A stretch of DNA of 54,431 nt from Candidatus Zixiibacteriota bacterium (GTDB lineage: Bacteria > Zixibacteria > MSB-5A5 > GN15 > FEB-12). This document shows positions 4,603 through 14,141 of the stretch, piece after piece. A program made the translations under genes and the position numbers. Below the pieces are notes generated by a model that was not told where the DNA came from, did not search any database, and saw only the letters and a program-made list of their open reading frames with translations. The stretch is taken from the NCBI GenBank assembly GCA_040753875.1, contig JBFMDV010000015.1, positions 1 to 54,431 of the forward strand, written 5' to 3'. Position 1 is the first letter of the stretch; each line of letters begins with the position of its first letter.

Positions 4603-5283
4603 ATGTCAAAACGAGTTTTGTTGGGTATTTTGTCGTCACTGGTCGTCGTCGCCATCGCCTTCATGGCATTGGCCGGCGATCAACCCCAGACTCCCCCCAA
4701 ATCGCCCGCAAAGGGAGCGGAAAAATCGATTGGCGCCACGGAGAGTATGGGCAAGGCCACCTTGGGTCCGATCGACAAGGGATCAGAGATTTCGGTAAAG
4801 ATCTCCGGGCCGGGGGCGGTCGATGCCAGCACAATCAAGGTCGGAGAGAAAGTGTCGATTGACCTGTACTTTAGCAACAGCAAACCGCGGAAGGCGTTTA
4901 CGACCGGTTTCAAGCTCAGCTCACCTGATATCAAAACGCTCGAGCATCCGGCCGATCCGGGCATGGGTGTGAATGAGACAGGCGATATCAAAGGTCACAA
5001 CGGCTGGAACGACAACTCGGTGTGGGATCTCAAAGGCCTGCTCGTGAACAAAGGGGACTGGGATGGCACGCTGCCGGACTATGTGGGTATCGGCGGTGTG
5101 GCGGTGAAACAGCGTTTCCAGCCGCAAGCGTCCACCAAACAGGTTTCGTTCGACCTCGTAGTTCCGGAGGCGGGCACATTGGTTGTCGATTCCGTATTTT
5201 TCCCGCCGGGCGGATACTGGAAATTTTCCGACAACGACAGACCGGCCTGGGGCGGTCCTTATACATTCAAGGTCGTGAAGTAA
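4603..5283 (+). CDS. Secreted protein, possible cohesin-like beta-sandwich (226 aa)
   Basis: An N-terminal hydrophobic segment (residues 7-23, ending MALAGDQ) is a signal peptide. After a Pro/Lys-rich linker (residues about 27-45) comes a single domain rich in beta-strand pattern: ISVKISGPGAV, GEKVSIDLYFSN, TTGFKLSS, and a C-terminal strand YTFKVVK. The phrase V-G-E-K-V-S-I-D-L-Y-F-S-N and the amphipathic strands are reminiscent of cohesin or bacterial Ig-like folds, but no diagnostic residue proves it. The ribosome site GGAGAG is well placed. The gene has its own promoter and a strong terminator, so it is monocistronic. I do not recognise the family and assign no function. Confidence 0.75.
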   Translation: MSKRVLLGILSSLVVVAIAFMALAGDQPQTPPKSPAKGAEKSIGATESMGKATLGPIDKGSEISVKISGPGAVDASTIKVGEKVSIDLYFSNSKPRKAFTTGFKLSSPDIKTLEHPADPGMGVNETGDIKGHNGWNDNSVWDLKGLLVNKGDWDGTLPDYVGIGGVAVKQRFQPQASTKQVSFDLVVPEAGTLVVDSVFFPPGGYWKFSDNDRPAWGGPYTFKVVK

Positions 5284-5341: not shown

Positions 5342-6181
5342 ATGAAACCGGAAGAATCGATAATTGTTCAGAGCTGTAGATCTCTTCGATGGTCGCTGGT
5401 TGTCGCTTATGTGCTTACGGCAACTTCCGCCTATTCAGACTCTACCGATATCAAACTTATCGCCAAAGACGCCGCCGGAGCGGACTCCTCCCGCTTCATT
5501 GTCCGCATTGAACGTGTGGATATCGTCAATCGAAGAATCAATGATACTCTCGACATCACCCTCGAAAGCTTCGACACTCCGGTAGCCGGTTTCGATTTCA
5601 AGATCGCCGGGAATGACCCCAGCGTCGATATCGTGTCGGTTCTGCCGGGCATCGTCTATGACTCCTGCCAGTGGGATTACTTCTCCGCCAAACGGATCAA
5701 CACCTTCGACAAAGCCGGCTGGCCGTTGGTGCTCTGGCATGTGGTCGGCCTGGCCCGCGCCATGCCGGGCGCTTCCAAGCCGATCTGCTTTGGGTTCGAC
5801 CGCGAAGCACCGATCATCAGGCTCGTTGTCTCGAACGAACATGTGTTGCAAATGCCCGAGACCGAGACCGCCATTTTCTTCTTCTGGGAGAAATGCACCG
5901 ACAACGTCGTCTCCGGGATGTCCGGCACCAAACTCTCCGTTTCAAACAACGTGCTCGATTACTTTCCGGTCGATTTGCCGTCCCCGGAGAATCTGTTTCC
6001 CACCCGCAAAGGGACACCGTCCCAATGTATAAACCTCAGCCGCCCCAACCACCCGCTTCGCCAGATTGAGTTCCACAACGGCGGCCTCTCTTTCAAATAT
6101 CAATCTCTCCATCAGCTGAAAGACTCTGTTTCCACTCCAGTCACCCGCGATAGCACCGGAGACACCGCGTCATCAAAATAG
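5342..6181 (+). CDS. Secreted protein of unknown function (279 aa)
   Basis: A signal peptide is visible at about residues 15-32 (SLVVAYVLTATSAYS), after a longer-than-usual polar start. The start may therefore be slightly misplaced, and no good ribosome site precedes the ATG. The mature part begins with beta-strand-like repeats (FIVRIERVDIV, DTLDITLESFDTPVAGFDFKI) that resemble the beta-sandwich style of the gene at 4603. It then has a Trp/Cys-containing middle (CQWDYF, WEKCTD) and a Pro-rich tail. No enzyme motif is seen. It is separated from the gene upstream by a terminator, so it needs its own promoter, which I could not find convincingly. Confidence 0.7.
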   Translation: MKPEESIIVQSCRSLRWSLVVAYVLTATSAYSDSTDIKLIAKDAAGADSSRFIVRIERVDIVNRRINDTLDITLESFDTPVAGFDFKIAGNDPSVDIVSVLPGIVYDSCQWDYFSAKRINTFDKAGWPLVLWHVVGLARAMPGASKPICFGFDREAPIIRLVVSNEHVLQMPETETAIFFFWEKCTDNVVSGMSGTKLSVSNNVLDYFPVDLPSPENLFPTRKGTPSQCINLSRPNHPLRQIEFHNGGLSFKYQSLHQLKDSVSTPVTRDSTGDTASSK

Positions 6182-6347: not shown

Positions 6348-7544
6348 ATGAGACTATACGAATTCGAAGGCAAAGAGCTATTCAAGAAATTCAAAATACC
6401 CGTTTCCGATAGCCGCTTGGCGAAAACCACCGACGAGGTTTTCATCGCCGTCAATGATCTGAACTGCCCGGTGGTGCTCAAATCGCAGGTGCTAATCGGC
6501 GGACGCGGCAAAGCGGGCGGCATCAAACTGGCCGATACACCCGACCAGGCCAAGACGCTCGCCAAAGAGCTGTTCGCCCTGAAAATCAAAGGATATCCCG
6601 TCGAAGAGATTCTGATCGAGCCCAAACTCGCCATCAAGAAAGAATTCTACATCGGCGTCACGATCGACCGCACCAACTACAAGCTGGTGATTATTGCTTC
6701 CGGTGAAGGAGGGGTCGATATCGAGGAAACCGCCGCCAAACACCCGGAGAAAATCATCAAGAAATCCCTCTCGGTCGAAGAACCCTTCTACGGTTTCGAT
6801 GCCCTCGCTATGGCCAAGCAGATCGGCATCCCGACCGAGTTGATCAAGTCAGGCGCCGAGATTATTGTCGGCCTTTACAACATGTTCAAGAAATACGATG
6901 CCAAGCTGGTCGAGATAAATCCGCTCGTACTCACCGCCGACAGCAAACTAATTGCCGCCGACAGCCGGGTCTCTCTCGATGATGATGCCCTGTTCCGTCA
7001 CGCCGAATTGAAGGGGATGGGGATCGAGAAACGCCATGAAGAAGGGGAGATGACCCCTCGCGAAAGCCAGGCCACCGAGTGGGGAATCCCGTATCTGGAT
7101 CTCGATGGCGATATCGGCATGTTCCCCGGCGGTGCCGGTTTCGGCATCATGGGTAACGACTTCATTCATTATTACGGCGGCAAGCCGGCCAATTTTATGG
7201 ATTCCGGCGGCGGCCCCACACCCGAGCGACTCGCTCAAATGCTGGTGCTGCTTGATGACAACCCGCAGGTGAAAGCGATCTTCGGCGCCCGGTTCGGCGG
7301 CATATCCCGTTGTGATGATTTCGCCAAAGGCGTGGTGATCTTCCTCAAGAATCACGGTCTCTCCAAACCGATGGTCCTCCGTATGACCGGCAACATGTGG
7401 CAGGAGGGAGTCCGCATTTTCGAAGAGGCCAAGAAAGAAAGCCCCAAGCTGTTCGAGAAAATCGAATTCCACGGCATCGAAACCCCCATCGAAGAGATTT
7501 CCAAACGCGCGGTCGAGCTGGCGGCGAGGGAGAGAGGCAACTAA
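6348..7544 (+). CDS. sucC: Succinyl-CoA synthetase (ligase) beta subunit
   Basis: This is the nucleotide-binding subunit of the TCA-cycle enzyme that converts succinyl-CoA, ADP (or GDP) and phosphate to succinate, CoA and ATP. The N-terminal ATP-grasp domain starts with the typical LYEFEGKELFKKFKIPV. It shows the Lys/Gly nucleotide loop VLIGGRGKAGGIKLA and the metal-binding segment VEINPLVLTADSKLIAADSR. The C-terminal CoA-ligase domain has GGAGFGIMGNDFIHYYGG and NFMDSGGGPTPE. The length of 398 aa is within the family range (about 385-400). Its stop overlaps the sucD start by one base (TAATG), as expected for a 1:1 complex. Nucleotide specificity is not decided here. Confidence 0.96.
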   Translation: MRLYEFEGKELFKKFKIPVSDSRLAKTTDEVFIAVNDLNCPVVLKSQVLIGGRGKAGGIKLADTPDQAKTLAKELFALKIKGYPVEEILIEPKLAIKKEFYIGVTIDRTNYKLVIIASGEGGVDIEETAAKHPEKIIKKSLSVEEPFYGFDALAMAKQIGIPTELIKSGAEIIVGLYNMFKKYDAKLVEINPLVLTADSKLIAADSRVSLDDDALFRHAELKGMGIEKRHEEGEMTPRESQATEWGIPYLDLDGDIGMFPGGAGFGIMGNDFIHYYGGKPANFMDSGGGPTPERLAQMLVLLDDNPQVKAIFGARFGGISRCDDFAKGVVIFLKNHGLSKPMVLRMTGNMWQEGVRIFEEAKKESPKLFEKIEFHGIETPIEEISKRAVELAARERGN

Positions 7545-8410
7545 TGGCTATCCTGGTTGACAAAAGAAGTAACGTCATGGTGCAGGGGATCACCGGCGGC
7601 GCCGGCAAATTCCACACCGAACGAATGATCGCCTACGGCACGCATATCGTCGGCGGCACCTCACCCGGCAAAGGGGGCGCCACTGTTTCCGGCAAACCGG
7701 TGTTCGATACTGTTGCCGAATGTGTCAAACAAACCGGCGCCGATGTCTCCGTCGTATTCCTTCCCGCGCCCGCCGTCAAAGAAGCCGCCATCGAAGCTAT
7801 CCGCGCCGGGATCAAGTTCCTTGTTGTCGTGCCGGAGCATATTCCAATTCACGACATGCTCTATGTCCGCGAGGAAGCAGTTCGCCACGGTGCAACCGTA
7901 ATCGGTGGCAACACCGCCGGCATCATCACCCCCGGAGAGGCCAACCTTGGCATAATGCCGGAGATCGCGTTCTCACCCGGTCGTGTCGGCACGGTCTCCC
8001 GCTCCGGCTCCATCACGTACTATGTCGCCGACACGCTGACTCGCACCGGCTACGGTCAAACCACCTGCGTTGGTCTTGGCGGTGACCCGGTGCTCGGCTC
8101 AACATTCGATGAAATCCTCTGGAAATTCGAGCAGGACGAAAAGACAAAAGCCGTCGTAATGTGCGGCGAGATCGGCGGCGTGTACGAAGAGCGCGCCACG
8201 AGTGTAATCCCCAAAATGAAAACACCGGTACTGGCGATGATCGGCGGCATTTTCGCGCCTCCCGGCAAACGGATGGGTCACGCCGGCGCGATTGTCGAAG
8301 GCACCATGGGCACCGCCAAAGAAAAACTCGACTTGCTCGCCGCCTCCGGCGCCCACCCCTGCAAGACGTTTCGGGATATCCCGGAGGTGCTGAAGAAGCT
8401 GGGGGTGTGA
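7544..8410 (+). CDS. sucD: Succinyl-CoA synthetase (ligase) alpha subunit
   Basis: This subunit binds CoA and carries the phosphohistidine of succinyl-CoA synthetase. The start MAILVDKRSNVMVQGITGG at 7544 fits the family (288 aa) and follows GGGAGAGAGG; longer upstream reading would run back inside sucC. The Rossmann CoA-binding domain includes GITGGAGKFHTERM and TSPGKGG. The active-site histidine lies in KRMGHAGAIVEG, and the ligase domain carries GRVGTVSRSGSITYYVAD. It is translationally coupled to sucC. No terminator is evident after the stop; an accessory gene begins 25 bases later. Confidence 0.96.
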   Translation: MAILVDKRSNVMVQGITGGAGKFHTERMIAYGTHIVGGTSPGKGGATVSGKPVFDTVAECVKQTGADVSVVFLPAPAVKEAAIEAIRAGIKFLVVVPEHIPIHDMLYVREEAVRHGATVIGGNTAGIITPGEANLGIMPEIAFSPGRVGTVSRSGSITYYVADTLTRTGYGQTTCVGLGGDPVLGSTFDEILWKFEQDEKTKAVVMCGEIGGVYEERATSVIPKMKTPVLAMIGGIFAPPGKRMGHAGAIVEGTMGTAKEKLDLLAASGAHPCKTFRDIPEVLKKLGV

Positions 8411-8435
8411 AGGGGTATTCGACTGGGTTCAGAAA

Positions 8436-9056
8436 ATGATTAAGTGGTGTCAAAGGACATGGTTTGCGTGGAGGGTAAGGCGGTTTGCTAACGAGGGAAG
8501 GCGCCTACAACAAGGCGGTGCGGGATCGCAAGGGCTCAAGATATGGCGCACAAATGCAGAGTCATTTTTGCGGCAAGTTTTTGGTGACAATCATGCGTGG
8601 ACCAACAAATTCGTGGGCATAGATTTTTCGCCCCAGGCTCCAAATTTCACAGGCGGCGACGGGCCAAGCCCGAGTGCTGAACGGATCTTCGCTGTTCGCA
8701 GTCAGTGGGAGAAGGAGCAACGGGGGAAGGCTCTGGAAAAGGCGCTTTGCTTGCTCGCGAAGATTGCTCAAGAAGTTCAAGACACCGATGTTCTGAGTCC
8801 TGATGCAGGCCCGGCGAAGATTATCCGATCCTTCCTGGTTACAGTAGTAAGTGGTGTCATAGTAGGTTTTCTAATATTGGTTTTTAGCTATTTCTATTGT
8901 AAGCCTAACAATGAACCGTCGAATACGGATATACAGACAAATGCTGTAGAATGCCCAGAGTACGGGATGTGCGCCTGGTGCGCGGCGCCGACTCGGCGCT
9001 CCAGTCAATTAGGTCATGCGTCTGGGGAAGTACACATTTCTGAAAGCGACGCATAA
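8436..9056 (+). CDS. Single-pass membrane protein of unknown function (206 aa)
   Basis: I do not recognise a named family. The N-terminal 125 residues are soluble and helical. They contain LKIWRTNAESFLRQVFGDNH (about residues 34-53), a W-x-x-x-A-x-x-x-L-x-x-x-F-G pattern that I have seen at the start of various small accessory proteins, some of them near defence genes. One transmembrane helix follows (FLVTVVSGVIVGFLILVFSYFY, about 133-154). The short tail has three cysteines and no domain. There is no good ribosome site, and codon use (AGG, ATA, GTA) differs from the flanking sucD gene. With the next gene it forms an accessory islet. Function unknown. Confidence 0.6.
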   Translation: MIKWCQRTWFAWRVRRFANEGRRLQQGGAGSQGLKIWRTNAESFLRQVFGDNHAWTNKFVGIDFSPQAPNFTGGDGPSPSAERIFAVRSQWEKEQRGKALEKALCLLAKIAQEVQDTDVLSPDAGPAKIIRSFLVTVVSGVIVGFLILVFSYFYCKPNNEPSNTDIQTNAVECPEYGMCAWCAAPTRRSSQLGHASGEVHISESDA

Positions 9057-9163
9057 GGCGGGTTGTAAACACGCTTCCGTTACGCATTGGATAAAGTTGT
9101 TCCATACGAACTGGGCATGTTAATGGAAACGAGAGCGTTTGTTAGCCGCGAGGAAGTTTTGTT

Positions 9164-9943
9164 ATGAGTGGGTGCCTTCCATGGATCGCGATAGTAGTAG
9201 TTGCCCTTGCAGGAGGGGCAATTGGGGGAGTACTTGGATTCATAGTTGGAGGAGTCGTGGGTTATGTAGGTATGGTCGGGTTGGGCGTTCTTGGAGTGAA
9301 AGTCTCTGGCGGCCTGCTTCCGCGCCGAGAGCGCCGAGACACCGCTCTGAGTTTTTATGACTACGACCGCGAGTTCATTGAATCCCACATACCACCTCCT
9401 TGGAGAGGAAGGTCTATCGCGTACATCGAATTCCTACTCGAGAAAATCGTGAAGCGTGCGGCTCTTGTGGGGCCTTCCTCCTCATCAGGTCTAACTTGGT
9501 GGGAAGTTGCCGCTGCGTATGAAATAGAATCTCAGAACGCGTACTCCGCGCAGGAAAGGGAGTTGCTGGAACGTCTCTGGCGGTTCCTTCAAAAGGAGTG
9601 GTACGGCGGCGTTTCCAAAGCTTCTGATGTCTGTAAGTCATCGTTTTCGAGAGTGCATAGCGAATATTCGGATGAAGTGCAAGAGTTCTATCGAGTTAAT
9701 CATAGATATGTCGACCGACATCTCATCTCGGAATGGAAGGATCGACCCGTTGCCTATTTGGAACACCTTTTTGGCCGGATAATGCAGAGCACGTCCATTG
9801 TCGGTCCGGCCTCGGCGAAAGGTCTAACAGATTCCAAGCTTGTAGGTGCCGTTGAAATCGAGATTGACCGCGCCACCTCGCACTACGAGAAGGAAATGAT
9901 AAATCGAATCGGGGAATTCCTTAGAAAGAAGTGGTTCACCTGA
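9164..9943 (+). CDS. Membrane protein with a tandemly duplicated ~86-aa domain (259 aa)
   Basis: A glycine-zipper membrane segment (residues about 8-50, GGAIGGVLGFIVGGVVGYVG) is followed by two copies of one domain: residues 62-147 and 172-258. Aligned pairs include SIAYIEFLLEKIVKRAALVG with PVAYLEHLFGRIMQSTSIVG, GLTWWEVAAAYEIE with GLTDSKLVGAVEIE, and RLWRFLQKEWY with RIGEFLRKKWF. The repeats are predicted helical and lie on one side of the membrane. The ATG has a good ribosome site (GAGGAAG). Codon use is AT-richer than that of nearby housekeeping genes, a possible sign of transfer. No known family or catalytic motif is seen. It may act with the preceding membrane protein, but 107 bases separate them. 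Confidence 0.7.
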   Translation: MSGCLPWIAIVVVALAGGAIGGVLGFIVGGVVGYVGMVGLGVLGVKVSGGLLPRRERRDTALSFYDYDREFIESHIPPPWRGRSIAYIEFLLEKIVKRAALVGPSSSSGLTWWEVAAAYEIESQNAYSAQERELLERLWRFLQKEWYGGVSKASDVCKSSFSRVHSEYSDEVQEFYRVNHRYVDRHLISEWKDRPVAYLEHLFGRIMQSTSIVGPASAKGLTDSKLVGAVEIEIDRATSHYEKEMINRIGEFLRKKWFT

Positions 9944-10025
9944 TAGCCTGCAGTTGATGGCGAGTATGGCGAATGAATGAGGTTCTTATGTCGTTGTAGG
10001 TCGGTGTTTCGAGCGGACCGGGTGG

Positions 10026-10044
10026 CCCACCGCTCTGCGGTGGG
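10026..10044. repeat. Perfect hairpin in spacer
   Basis: CCCACCGC (10026-10033), loop TCT, GCGGTGGG (10037-10044), followed by TTTCAG. The 214-base spacer 9944-10157 lies between convergent genes, so this could terminate transcription from the left. The T-run is too short for a confident call. Nothing else is recognisable in the spacer. Confidence 0.5.
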
Positions 10045-10157
10045 TTTCAGACACGCCCGCCATCGCCCGGCTTGGGTGGGGGGCCGCATGGCAGACTTTC
10101 AGCTTCGATTCGAGCAACATCCGACCAACCAGACTCCTTCGGTCGGCCGGTCGATCA

Positions 10158-10355
10158 CTATCGGGGTTCGACGCAGTCGATCGACGGGTCATAGGTGCAG
10201 GTCTCCACACCTTTGACCTTACAACAGCGATACCCGTTCAGGCCGTCGCAGACAATCCGGCAGGGCGGTGCCGCCTGAGTGTCCGCTGTGAACGCACCGA
10301 TCAAAAACGACGCCGCAAAAAGCAGGACCATGATCACGAGAAATGATTTACGCAT
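10158..10355 (-). CDS. Small secreted cysteine-rich peptide (65 aa)
   Basis: The product begins MRKSFLVIMVLLFAASFLIG, a strong signal peptide with probable cleavage after A-D-T-Q-A-A. The mature peptide is only about 35 residues with six cysteines (CRIVC, RCC, TC, DC), which could form three disulfides. I chose the start at 10355 because GGAAGGAG lies 7 bases upstream; the frame stays open to 10430 but that part is not signal-like. No homologous toxin, bacteriocin or chaperone is recognised. It has no evident partner gene and stands alone on the minus strand. Confidence 0.7.
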   Translation of the reverse strand: MRKSFLVIMVLLFAASFLIGAFTADTQAAPPCRIVCDGLNGYRCCKVKGVETCTYDPSIDCVEPR

Positions 10356-10820
10356 CGTTCGCTCCTTCCATGCGCGACCGCGACTCGCGCCGGTGACGGT
10401 TACTTGGTAGTGACCACTCGGCCACCCCACCCGTGATGAAAATAGAGCAATTTCATCCGCGTTCGCAAGTCAAATGTTGTCTGTTCGCAATGATCGGTAT
10501 TGTCCGTTCCGGCAGTTCTTGCTCGCCTGAGACCATTCGGTCAGTGGCGATTTGCACAAGAGGCTTTCGTGTCGAGGGCGAGTGTGAACTGCCGGTCCTG
10601 ATGCCGCCCCCCCCAAGGTCGGTCGGGTCACACGGCCGCTCTTCGACGAGATCACTTCGTATGATCGTCGCACTGAGCGGAGTCGAAGTCCGACGGTATC
10701 ACGACTGACGGCCGCAAGACCCAACCGAACGACTGGTGACGGTCGGGTGAGGACTTTCGTCGACGCTGCCGGTCGAGTTTTATCCCCATCTATTGTCAGA
10801 ATCCATTACCTTGGAAGCGA
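10356..10820. other. 465-base spacer without a supported gene
   Basis: This stretch lies between the divergent small-peptide gene and the asparaginase gene. It contains repeated GGTCGG/CGGTCG words (for example 10618-10627 and 10740-10748) but no clear inverted repeat, RNA gene or promoter. A 91-codon open frame on the plus strand (10433-10708) has Arg/Ser-rich composition and no ribosome site, so I do not call it. Confidence 0.5.
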
Positions 10821-11864
10821 ATGAACGACAACAAGAATACAGCCACACCCTTCGTCCCCGCGCTCGCCGCCCGCGTATTCCGGGGGGACGCCGTCGAGGC
10901 GATCCATTACGCCACCATCGCTATTGTCAACGCCGAAGGTAAGCTGACTCATTATCTCGGCGACCCGTTCCAGCCGTTCATGACCCGGTCCTCAATCAAG
11001 CCGTTCCAGCTTGCGCCGCTCATCACCACTGGCGCGGCGGATCACTATAAGTTCTCCAATGAGCAACTCGCCATCATGGCCGGCTCCCACTCCGGGACCG
11101 ATGCGCACCGCGTGGTGGTCATGTCCAATCTGCAGAAAGCCGGCAACAAACCGGAGATGCTTCAGTGCGGCGCTCATCCTCCAATCTTCATGCAACAGGA
11201 AAACATTTACCCGCGCAATGATGAAGACAAAGACCCGGTCCGCCATAACTGCTCCGGCAAGCACTCCGGCTTTCTCGCGCTGGCCAGATTCATGGGCGTG
11301 GACGTGTCTGAGTATCTGAATCCGGAAAGCAAATCCCAAAAGCTGGTCAAGAAGACTCTTGCCGAGATCTGTGAGTACCCCGAAGACAAAATGACCGTCG
11401 GTATCGATGGTTGCAGCGCGCCCAACTTTTCGCTCCCCATGAACAACCTGGCGCTCGGATTCAGGAAGCTGGCGCACCCAAACGGCTGCGGCACAGATAT
11501 CCGCAAGGCGCTCGACCGCATCCGCAACGCCATGCAAGAGCATCCGTTCATGTTTTCCGGCGACAAGCGCCCCGACTTGGTGCTGATGTACTCGTTCCCG
11601 CACCGGATAGTGTGCAAGGGGGGCGCCGAAGCGGTTCAGGCCATCGGTTTCTCCGACCCTCCGCTCGGAATCGCCATCAAGATCCATGACGGCAACGCCC
11701 GTGCCTTGATGGCGATCTGTGTCGAGGTTCTGAAGCAGTTGGGAATAGTTGCCAATATGGACGATTTTGAGTATCTTATAAAATATGAACAGCCGGAGGT
11801 GCGGAACAACCGTGGCCTCCTGACCGGTTATATAAAGACCGATTTCGTGTTGAAGAAGGCGTGA
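10821..11864 (+). CDS. L-asparaginase, Rhizobium etli (Asparaginase_II) type
   Basis: It probably hydrolyses L-asparagine to aspartate and ammonia. The 347-aa protein belongs to the thermolabile class known from R. etli, not to the E. coli AnsA/AnsB fold. The key motifs are RSSIKPFQ (S57, K60), HNCSGKHSG (C144, K147) and GIDGCSAPNF (D196, C198). From memory of R. etli ReAV, these match Ser48, Lys51, Cys135, Lys138, Asp187 and Cys189 with a constant offset of nine, so the nucleophile pairs and the zinc-site cysteines are all present. No signal peptide, so it should be cytoplasmic. It lies 268 bases before tryptophanase, which suggests a small amino-acid-degradation group. The start ATG follows GGAAGCGA closely. 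Confidence 0.88.
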   Translation: MNDNKNTATPFVPALAARVFRGDAVEAIHYATIAIVNAEGKLTHYLGDPFQPFMTRSSIKPFQLAPLITTGAADHYKFSNEQLAIMAGSHSGTDAHRVVVMSNLQKAGNKPEMLQCGAHPPIFMQQENIYPRNDEDKDPVRHNCSGKHSGFLALARFMGVDVSEYLNPESKSQKLVKKTLAEICEYPEDKMTVGIDGCSAPNFSLPMNNLALGFRKLAHPNGCGTDIRKALDRIRNAMQEHPFMFSGDKRPDLVLMYSFPHRIVCKGGAEAVQAIGFSDPPLGIAIKIHDGNARALMAICVEVLKQLGIVANMDDFEYLIKYEQPEVRNNRGLLTGYIKTDFVLKKA

Positions 11865-12132: not shown

Positions 12133-13533
12133 ATGAAAAACCGTCGCCAGCCGGCGGAACCGTACCGCATAAAATCAGTCGAGCCGATCCGGCTGCTCGA
12201 CCGCGCCGAACGTGAACAACGGATTCGCGCCGCGCATTACAACCTGTTCAAGATCGACTCAGCCGATATTTACATTGATCTGCTTACCGATTCCGGCACC
12301 GGTGCCATGTCCAACCGGCAATGGGCGGCGCTGATGATGGGGGATGAATCATACGCGGGCGCAATCTCGTTCCGCCATTTCGAGAAAACGGTTCAATCGA
12401 TCTTTCACAAAAAGAGAATCATCCCGTGCCACCAGGGCAGAGTGGCGGAGAATCTCGTTTTCAGCACGATTCTCAAGAAGGGGCAGTTCGTACTGAACAA
12501 TACGCATTTCGATACCACCAGGGGAAATGTCCTGCATAAAGGAGGCATTCCCATCGATCTGCCATGCCCGCAATCGCGGTCGAACGACCCGCTCCCGTTC
12601 AAAGGCAACATGGACACCGCCAAACTCGAGGAGTTTATTAAAGAGCATGGCTCTCAGACTATCGCCATGGTGATCATGACCGTCACCAACAACTCCTCAG
12701 GCGGTCAGCCGGTTTCGATGGCCAATATCCATGAGACTGCCGAAATCTGCCACCGCTATCATCTGCCGTTCTTCTACGATGCGGCCCGGTTCGCTGAAAA
12801 CTGCTACTTCATTAAACGCGATGAGCCCGGCTATCACGACAAGTCGATTCGCGAAATCGCCGCTGAGATGTTCGAGCAGTGCGATGGTGTCATGATGTCC
12901 GCCAAGAAAGATGGCCTGGCCAACATTGGGGGCTTCATTGCGATCAACGATGAAGACCTCTATCGCCGCATTACTGAGTTAATGATTCTTATAGAAGGGT
13001 ATGTCACGTACGGCGGCCTGGCGGGGAGGGACCTCGAAGTTCTCGCGGTCGGCCTCGAAGAAGTCATGGATTTCGACTATTTGGATTTCCGGATCGAGCA
13101 GGTTCGGTATTTCGGCGATAAAATAAAAGAGGCGGGCCTCCCGATTATCGAGCCGACAGGAGGCCACGCGGTGTTTGTTGATGCCGGCCGCTTTCTGCCG
13201 CATATTCCTTCGTCACAGTTCCCCGGGCAGGGGTTGGCCGTTGCGTTCTATGTCGAAGGCGCGGTCCGGGCGGTCGAGATTGGTTCGCTCATGTTCGGCG
13301 GGGTCGACCCAGTTACCGGCAAACCGATCTATGCACCACGGGAACTCGTCAGAATGGCGCTTCCGCGGCGGGTCTTCACGAACTCTCACATTGACTATGT
13401 TGCTGAAGTAGCCGAGAAGATAGCGTCAAAGAAGGAGAGTATCCCCGGCTACCGGATTACCAAAGAGAGCCAGTTCCTTCGCCATTTCACGTGCGAACTG
13501 GCTGCAGTGTCGCCGGTGCATGCCAACGTGTAA
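12133..13533 (+). CDS. tnaA: Tryptophanase (tryptophan indole-lyase)
   Basis: This PLP enzyme splits tryptophan into indole, pyruvate and ammonia. The cofactor lysine lies in MMSAKKDGLANIGG (K258 or K259), and LPRRVF near residue 410 holds the substrate-carboxylate arginine. The near relative tyrosine phenol-lyase uses Arg381 and Phe448 (Citrobacter numbering) for the phenol ring. Here the equivalent places read AVEIGS (I383) and LRHFTCEL (H451), which match tryptophanase. The length of 466 aa is normal. A good ribosome site (AGGGAGA) precedes the ATG. The stop overlaps the next start (TAATG). No TnaC-like leader peptide was found upstream, so tryptophan-controlled attenuation is not supported. 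Confidence 0.9.
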   Translation: MKNRRQPAEPYRIKSVEPIRLLDRAEREQRIRAAHYNLFKIDSADIYIDLLTDSGTGAMSNRQWAALMMGDESYAGAISFRHFEKTVQSIFHKKRIIPCHQGRVAENLVFSTILKKGQFVLNNTHFDTTRGNVLHKGGIPIDLPCPQSRSNDPLPFKGNMDTAKLEEFIKEHGSQTIAMVIMTVTNNSSGGQPVSMANIHETAEICHRYHLPFFYDAARFAENCYFIKRDEPGYHDKSIREIAAEMFEQCDGVMMSAKKDGLANIGGFIAINDEDLYRRITELMILIEGYVTYGGLAGRDLEVLAVGLEEVMDFDYLDFRIEQVRYFGDKIKEAGLPIIEPTGGHAVFVDAGRFLPHIPSSQFPGQGLAVAFYVEGAVRAVEIGSLMFGGVDPVTGKPIYAPRELVRMALPRRVFTNSHIDYVAEVAEKIASKKESIPGYRITKESQFLRHFTCELAAVSPVHANV

Positions 13534-14141
13534 TGGTCGAAAGCGGTATGCGTTTGAACCTGAGAGCGTTCGTATTGGCGGGACTACTGAGCACACCTCT
13601 GCTCTTTACAGCCTGTATCAAAGTGCAGACCGGACCGCCAACGACCGAGGAGGCGCTCGATGCCGCCAGCGTCCGCGGCAAAGAGATTCGGGCGGAGTGG
13701 TTCACGCGGTTCCAGTCAGCTACTCCGGAGGACAAAGTCATTCTCTGGCGCATGTTCGTCGATTCCACCGCCGAGTCATATCTGCGCTACGGCTCAACGG
13801 TTGCCGATGAGTGGCGCAAAGGCAACGAGGGGCGAAGGGCAGCGATTGCCGATACCGAAATGCAGTCGACAGTGGACCGTTGGATCCTGACCCAGCGTCC
13901 CCAGTTGGAGGCCTACGATGATATTGTCGAGTACGGTGTGGACCAGATCAAGCTGACCAATGTGTTCGGAGCTACGATTCTGGACCCGATTCAGCAGCTT
14001 CGCGACCAGTATTATCGGGTTTACAGTGCGGTGTTTTTCCCGAAAGGGACGGTGCAGGAGTACTTGCAGCGCCAAACCGAAGTCAGGGGGGAACTGCAGC
14101 GGTACAGCTTTGACCTCGAACGTGCCCTCAGTCGACGCTGA
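13533..14141 (+). CDS. Probable lipoprotein of unknown function (202 aa)
   Basis: The ATG at 13533 overlaps the tnaA stop (TAATG); a second ATG at 13548 would also keep the signal. The N-terminus has an Arg, a hydrophobic core and LLFTAC (C28), a slightly unusual lipobox. The mature protein is helical and charged, with the pairs GKEIRAEWFTRFQ and RYGSTVADEWRKG. No recognised domain. The coupling to tnaA suggests co-transcription but does not reveal a role. An envelope protein on an amino-acid-degradation transcript is odd and could be accidental. Confidence 0.7.
   Translation: MVESGMRLNLRAFVLAGLLSTPLLFTACIKVQTGPPTTEEALDAASVRGKEIRAEWFTRFQSATPEDKVILWRMFVDSTAESYLRYGSTVADEWRKGNEGRRAAIADTEMQSTVDRWILTQRPQLEAYDDIVEYGVDQIKLTNVFGATILDPIQQLRDQYYRVYSAVFFPKGTVQEYLQRQTEVRGELQRYSFDLERALSRR

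Follow-up and report, generated by a model that had tools for sequence, protein, structure and literature searches.

SLATT and S-2TM-beta effectors of bacterial conflict systems are among the described systems closest to the protein studied here. As outlined in parts of two published accounts (PMC7159879, PMC12657218), these effectors combine a two-pass membrane element with a cytosolic part, and the likeness to our protein is one of layout only. In S-2TM-beta effectors such as Cap15 and OptE, a beta-barrel sensor follows the two transmembrane (TM) helices, whereas the model of our protein is helical.

The protein is encoded on a contig of a Candidatus Zixiibacteriota bacterium (GenBank assembly GCA_040753875.1, contig JBFMDV010000015.1), of which a stretch of 54,431 nucleotides, hereafter called the window, was analysed. 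A sequence-only reading of this DNA had proposed that a membrane segment followed by two copies of an unnamed domain makes up the product of ORF 9164-9943. This interpretation is supported by the analysis reported here. In addition, a single-domain homologue was found in a second genome of the phylum (G119).

Domain duplication

Residues 56-147 and 167-258 of the product of ORF 9164-9943 align without gaps over 92 residues at an offset of 111. The copies are identical at 32 of these 92 positions (35%) and score positive at 56 (71.6 bits; pairwise blastp E 6e-23 in a search space of 8010). None of 2000 shuffled versions of copy 2 equalled the real score (shuffle maximum 54 vs 179 observed). The proposal that the protein is made of two copies of one domain was thus confirmed. 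The bounds proposed earlier (62-147 and 172-258) captured the repeat, the alignment being slightly longer on re-examination. Likewise, the conserved core and the closing motif named in the sequence-only reading are both present in both copies, except that the spacer written as GLT-x5-A-x-E-I-E is really six residues long. A conserved loop reads GPSSSSG in copy 1, GPASAKG in copy 2 and GPSTSSG in the homologue, i.e. GPSxSSG in copy 1 and the homologue.

At the DNA level the copies are 48% identical, with 48, 64 and 33% identity at codon positions 1, 2 and 3, respectively. These codon-position values indicate that the duplication is old, with selection acting on the protein, and not a recent repeat. 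Maintenance of the duplication at the protein level would fit a constitutive membrane scaffold or adaptor whose tandem domains dock a cytosolic partner, with no role as effector or in conflict. No catalytic-looking motif was seen and the homologue adjoins ordinary genes, both of which agree with a scaffold. However, great rarity in the phylum and foreign composition in both genomes would be unusual for a core scaffold, and we consider this explanation possible but rather unlikely. A scan for promoters and terminators revealed nothing beyond shuffled controls. The features of the locus are compiled in Table 1.

Table 1. Features of the window gene and of the ORF upstream of it.
Feature	Position in window	Strand	Basis or remark
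ORF upstream (206 aa) with one hydrophobic segment, candidate partner	8436-9056	+	lowest GC3, weak PADLOC match
Possible ribosome-binding site GAGGAA, 8 bases 5' of ATG	9150-9155	+	sequence inspection
Whole gene, 259 aa: membrane segment and two domain copies	9164-9943	+	ATG start
Membrane segment, hydrophobic, glycine-rich, residues ~5-49, likely two helices	9176-9310	+	hydropathy, model
Domain copy 1, residues 56-147	9329-9604	+	repeat alignment; G119 homologue 36% identical
Linker, residues 148-166, helical at low confidence	9605-9661	+	model, residues 149-165 with pLDDT < 50
Domain copy 2, residues 167-258	9662-9937	+	repeat alignment; G119 homologue 21% identical

A single-domain relative

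A profile of the two copies was used to search 132 genomes of the phylum, own genome included, and retrieved only the own gene and the G119 homologue (E 5e-16). The protein family was found in 2 of the 132 genomes, which belong to different taxonomic families. The homologue (G119:C135; L004:1480-1944, minus strand) comprises 154 aa, with an N-terminal hydrophobic segment and one domain. It matches residues 1-152 of the window protein (pairwise E 1.3e-32) with 34% identity over 152 aa, membrane segment included. Over residues 1-54 the membrane segments are 33% identical, and the membrane part alone gives E 6.5e-8. Common to both proteins are the hydrophobic segment, an LPR motif, the GPSxSSG loop and a closing FxxxEWYG. 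They differ in that the homologue has one domain, is AT-rich and lies in another neighbourhood, whereas the window protein has two domains. As the homology covers membrane segment and domain, the window protein belongs to the family of the 154-aa protein.

The existence of an independent single-domain homologue with a matching membrane segment shows that the repeat unit is a real domain. Further, occurrence in a single and a tandem architecture fixes the limits of the domain securely and allows a profile to be built. The window protein probably derives from a single-domain form through duplication. With respect to the order of events, copy 1 is closer to the homologue (36%; pairwise E 1.5e-21) than is copy 2 (21%; pairwise E 5e-11), the two copies sharing 35% identity. 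In the simplest history, the ancestor would have had one domain, the doubling would have taken place in the lineage of the window, and copy 2 would then have changed faster; an earlier duplication followed by loss of one domain in G119 is possible. Since G119 is 9% contaminated, the contig carrying the homologue may originate from another organism.

No further credible member was found in the phylum with a three-domain profile or with a profile of the full-length pair. Searching 98 genomes, own included, with the single protein yielded the own gene and one spurious match to the membrane segment. The following candidates were dropped: (i) a G026 match (E 0.006) to a 222-aa multi-TM protein, presumably DedA-like, which matches mainly by its membrane segment; (ii) a G097 match (E 0.007, profile positions 5-62) interrupted by an internal stop; (iii) the matches of the three-domain profile in 10 of 12 genomes at E 0.16-0.94; (iv) an extra match in the own genome (G000:C22, E 0.757). 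Beyond the phylum, scans of genome contigs and viral contigs gave nothing credible, where such scans need exact short peptides and distant relatives can escape them. When the window protein and the homologue were used as tblastn queries against plasmids and phages, nothing credible was obtained either, the only match being to an SprA gene (E 2).

Predicted topology and fold

The sequence-only reading had placed a membrane segment ahead of the copies. In agreement with this, residues ~5-49 are glycine-rich and hydrophobic, with 19-residue Kyte-Doolittle means of up to 2.5. In this segment of the window protein, AlphaFold predicts helices 5-21 and 23-47 (mean pLDDT 70.6 and pTM 0.44 for the model, which uses an alignment of two sequences). 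A two-helix membrane hairpin is likely on the basis of segment length, but the low-confidence model of the homologue (mean pLDDT 61) shows a single unbroken helix 5-47. A basic stretch follows the membrane segment. According to the positive-inside rule, the basic flank of a membrane segment marks the cytosolic side, and the part C-terminal to the segment should therefore be cytosolic.

Apart from two single-residue bridges, the window protein model is helical at moderate confidence, with no strand of 3 residues or more. Helices of copy 1 comprise residues 54-67/69-75, 84-102, 112-124 and 129-147. Those of copy 2 (the end of 149-186, then 195-213, 223-236 and 240-258) are the copy 1 elements shifted by 111. 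Helix assignments of the copies agree in register at 95% of the 92 positions, as compared to 60-90% when slid by 1-8 positions. Structure prediction, suggested earlier as a check on the repeat, accordingly gave two halves with a shared helix pattern. As only two sequences underlie the model, and a single one underlies copy 2, this agreement counts for less than the match in sequence. The homologue modelled alone has domain helices 54-75, 81-101, 112-124 and 129-146, in the same pattern as both copies. The GPSSSSG loop joins helices 2 and 3 at low confidence (residues 104-108 with pLDDT < 50).

Comparison with known families

With the window protein as query, nothing credible came up in Pfam (best E 0.083), PHROGs (best E 0.074), PADLOC (best E 0.012) or PDB sequences (best E 0.019 for the protein and 0.83 for the domain profile), and no NCBIfam family was found for it. 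The earlier remark that no named domain with this pattern was known thus holds for these libraries, relative to which the domain is unnamed. With the homologue, the best Pfam match (E 0.023) lay on the membrane segment, and there was none in PHROGs and PADLOC.

Structural comparison (VIA) reached a best Z of 7.5, below the ~13 advised for helical bundles. In this match, 72 residues within 50-146 (copy 1) superpose on a helical region of Spt6 (PDB 8of0 chain S) with an rmsd of 2.9, but at 14% identity. As Z is under the guide value for helical bundles, the likeness is probably that of a common arrangement. Matches to UvrD, phycobiliproteins and nucleosomes follow after Spt6. The best match in a viral structure library had E 0.45.

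SLATT effectors are covered in Pfam by models which we take to be those named SLATT or DUF4231-type. None of these was found for the window protein or the homologue at E up to 10, in searches where HMMER filters can drop weak matches. The surroundings were also inspected for the nucleotide-signal or conflict genes of a SLATT-like context: those neighbours that have names serve metabolism, transport or export, and the unnamed upstream ORF has a weak match to a defence candidate. On these tests, the window protein falls outside both the SLATT and the S-2TM-beta families.

The upstream ORF 8436-9056 has no homologue in 97 relatives at E 0.01, nor among plasmids or viral contigs. Its weak match to PADLOC PDC-S35 covers residues 28-69 (E 0.0049). 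The codon adaptation index (CAI) of 0.53 is no better than that of the shifted frames (0.504 and 0.533), and coding status is therefore uncertain. In G119, matches to this ORF are weak (E 0.017 with an internal stop, and E 0.52) and located on contigs other than that of the homologue. These data bear on an explanation in which the window protein would act as a two-TM effector in anti-phage defence or in a toxin-like system, with the product of ORF 8436-9056 as partner. A two-TM element with a cytosolic domain is a known layout of such effectors, as far as the cited accounts outline it (PMC7159879, PMC12657218), and the adjacent ORF, with its PDC-S35 match, is likewise a compositional outlier. 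However, neither the window protein nor the homologue matches a SLATT, S-2TM or other effector model in Pfam or PADLOC. Together with the separate location of the G119 matches and the uncertain coding status of the ORF, this makes the explanation doubtful.

Origin of the gene

Upstream of the window gene is sucD (7535-8410); downstream come an asparaginase gene (10821-11864) and then a gene for a beta-eliminating lyase (here called tryptophanase-type). The named flanking genes are metabolic according to Pfam. A sucD match was present in 19 of the 31 genomes of the taxonomic family, own included (at the limit used), and the downstream flank was taken from 15 of the 18 relatives, several flanks being short (130-1823 bases). 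Neither ORF 8436 nor ORF 9164 had a tblastn match at E 1e-3 in the 15 flanks. The lyase gene follows sucD in four flanks and the asparaginase gene in one. Other ORFs occupy the sucD-lyase interval in the four flanks that reach the lyase gene, which identifies the interval 3' of sucD as a variable site. The small ORFs in this interval differ between the loci L040, L043, L048 and L054 of related genomes. One in L040 (291-830) and one in L054 (1856-2440) look alike by eye, and one in L043 (5652-6332, minus strand) has what we take to be a PEP-CTERM-like end.

GC content at third codon positions (GC3) was compared among 36 non-overlapping window ORFs of at least 150 aa. ORF 8436 has the lowest value (0.505) and ORF 9164 the second lowest (0.525), while the remaining ORFs range from 0.594 to 0.761. 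For the homologue GC3 is 0.28, as opposed to 0.46-0.73 in the seven neighbours measured. CAI values of ORF 8436 (0.530) and ORF 9164 (0.581) are below those of 15 chosen genes (0.665-0.779) and so agree with GC3, a measure that is more telling than CAI, which is weak here as 11 of these 15 form the reference set. ORF 9164 scores higher in frame than in its shifted frames (0.537 and 0.483). Six of the seven neighbours of the homologue could be assigned by Pfam: MFS-like, HemN-like, signal peptidase, HAD, aminotransferase and polysaccharide export. The MFS-like one is a contig-end fragment just below the cut-off (32.2 bits). The two loci have no neighbours that were seen in common.

Both genes look recently acquired and foreign to their genomes. 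That the sites are unrelated and that both genes are outliers in composition favours horizontal acquisition, and we infer horizontal transfer of the window gene. Low GC3 can also mark weakly expressed or fast-evolving genes. A long-resident gene that nearly all relatives have lost, low in GC3 through weak expression and not through transfer, would be consistent with the lack of a mobile-element mark near the gene: there is no tRNA in the window, no integrase among ten neighbouring proteins scanned, and the region 8200-10900 contains only short two-copy repeats. Yet presence in two genomes of different families would demand many losses, the loci do not share neighbours, and the GC3 of the homologue is below that of every neighbour measured, all of which renders a resident gene improbable. 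Integrative elements as a source of many recently acquired genes and orphans are the stated subject of another study (PMC2718499).

Three other ORFs of the window (4603-5283, 5342-6181 and 13491-14141) have ordinary GC3 and no Pfam match at E 0.01; the last of them is matched in L040 and L048, two of the relatives. The intergenic stretch ~10015-10057 recurs at 87-91% identity in three other places of the genome (C6 twice, C25).

Discussion

The explanation that we tentatively prefer is that of a membrane-tethered cytosolic protein with two four-helix domain copies, encoded by a horizontally acquired accessory gene in a variable interval. The glycine-rich N-terminal segment, probably a two-helix hairpin, would serve as the anchor in the inner membrane, the remainder being kept on the cytosolic side by the basic residues past it. 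Two subunits of the single-domain form might pair, and in the window protein such a pair would be built into one chain; two-pass topology and domain pairing are both inferred. The gene would have been gained as an accessory gene in the stretch that runs from sucD to the asparaginase and tryptophanase-type genes. A role as sensor or effector is our leading guess. The most speculative step, taken by analogy with two-TM conflict effectors, is that the domain may sense a ligand or partner and act through the membrane segment.

Beyond this explanation, the proteins could represent a new, rarely carried and horizontally moving domain family in which a four-helix cytosolic module with the GPSxSSG loop switches a glycine-rich membrane hairpin and the tandem form is a built-in pair, a generalisation that we regard as unlikely as it stands.

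The domain is absent from the libraries searched and occurs in two architectures, single and tandem. In other respects one among many uncharacterised rare families, the family offers a tangible example of an accessory membrane gene, both of its genes being seemingly recent acquisitions.
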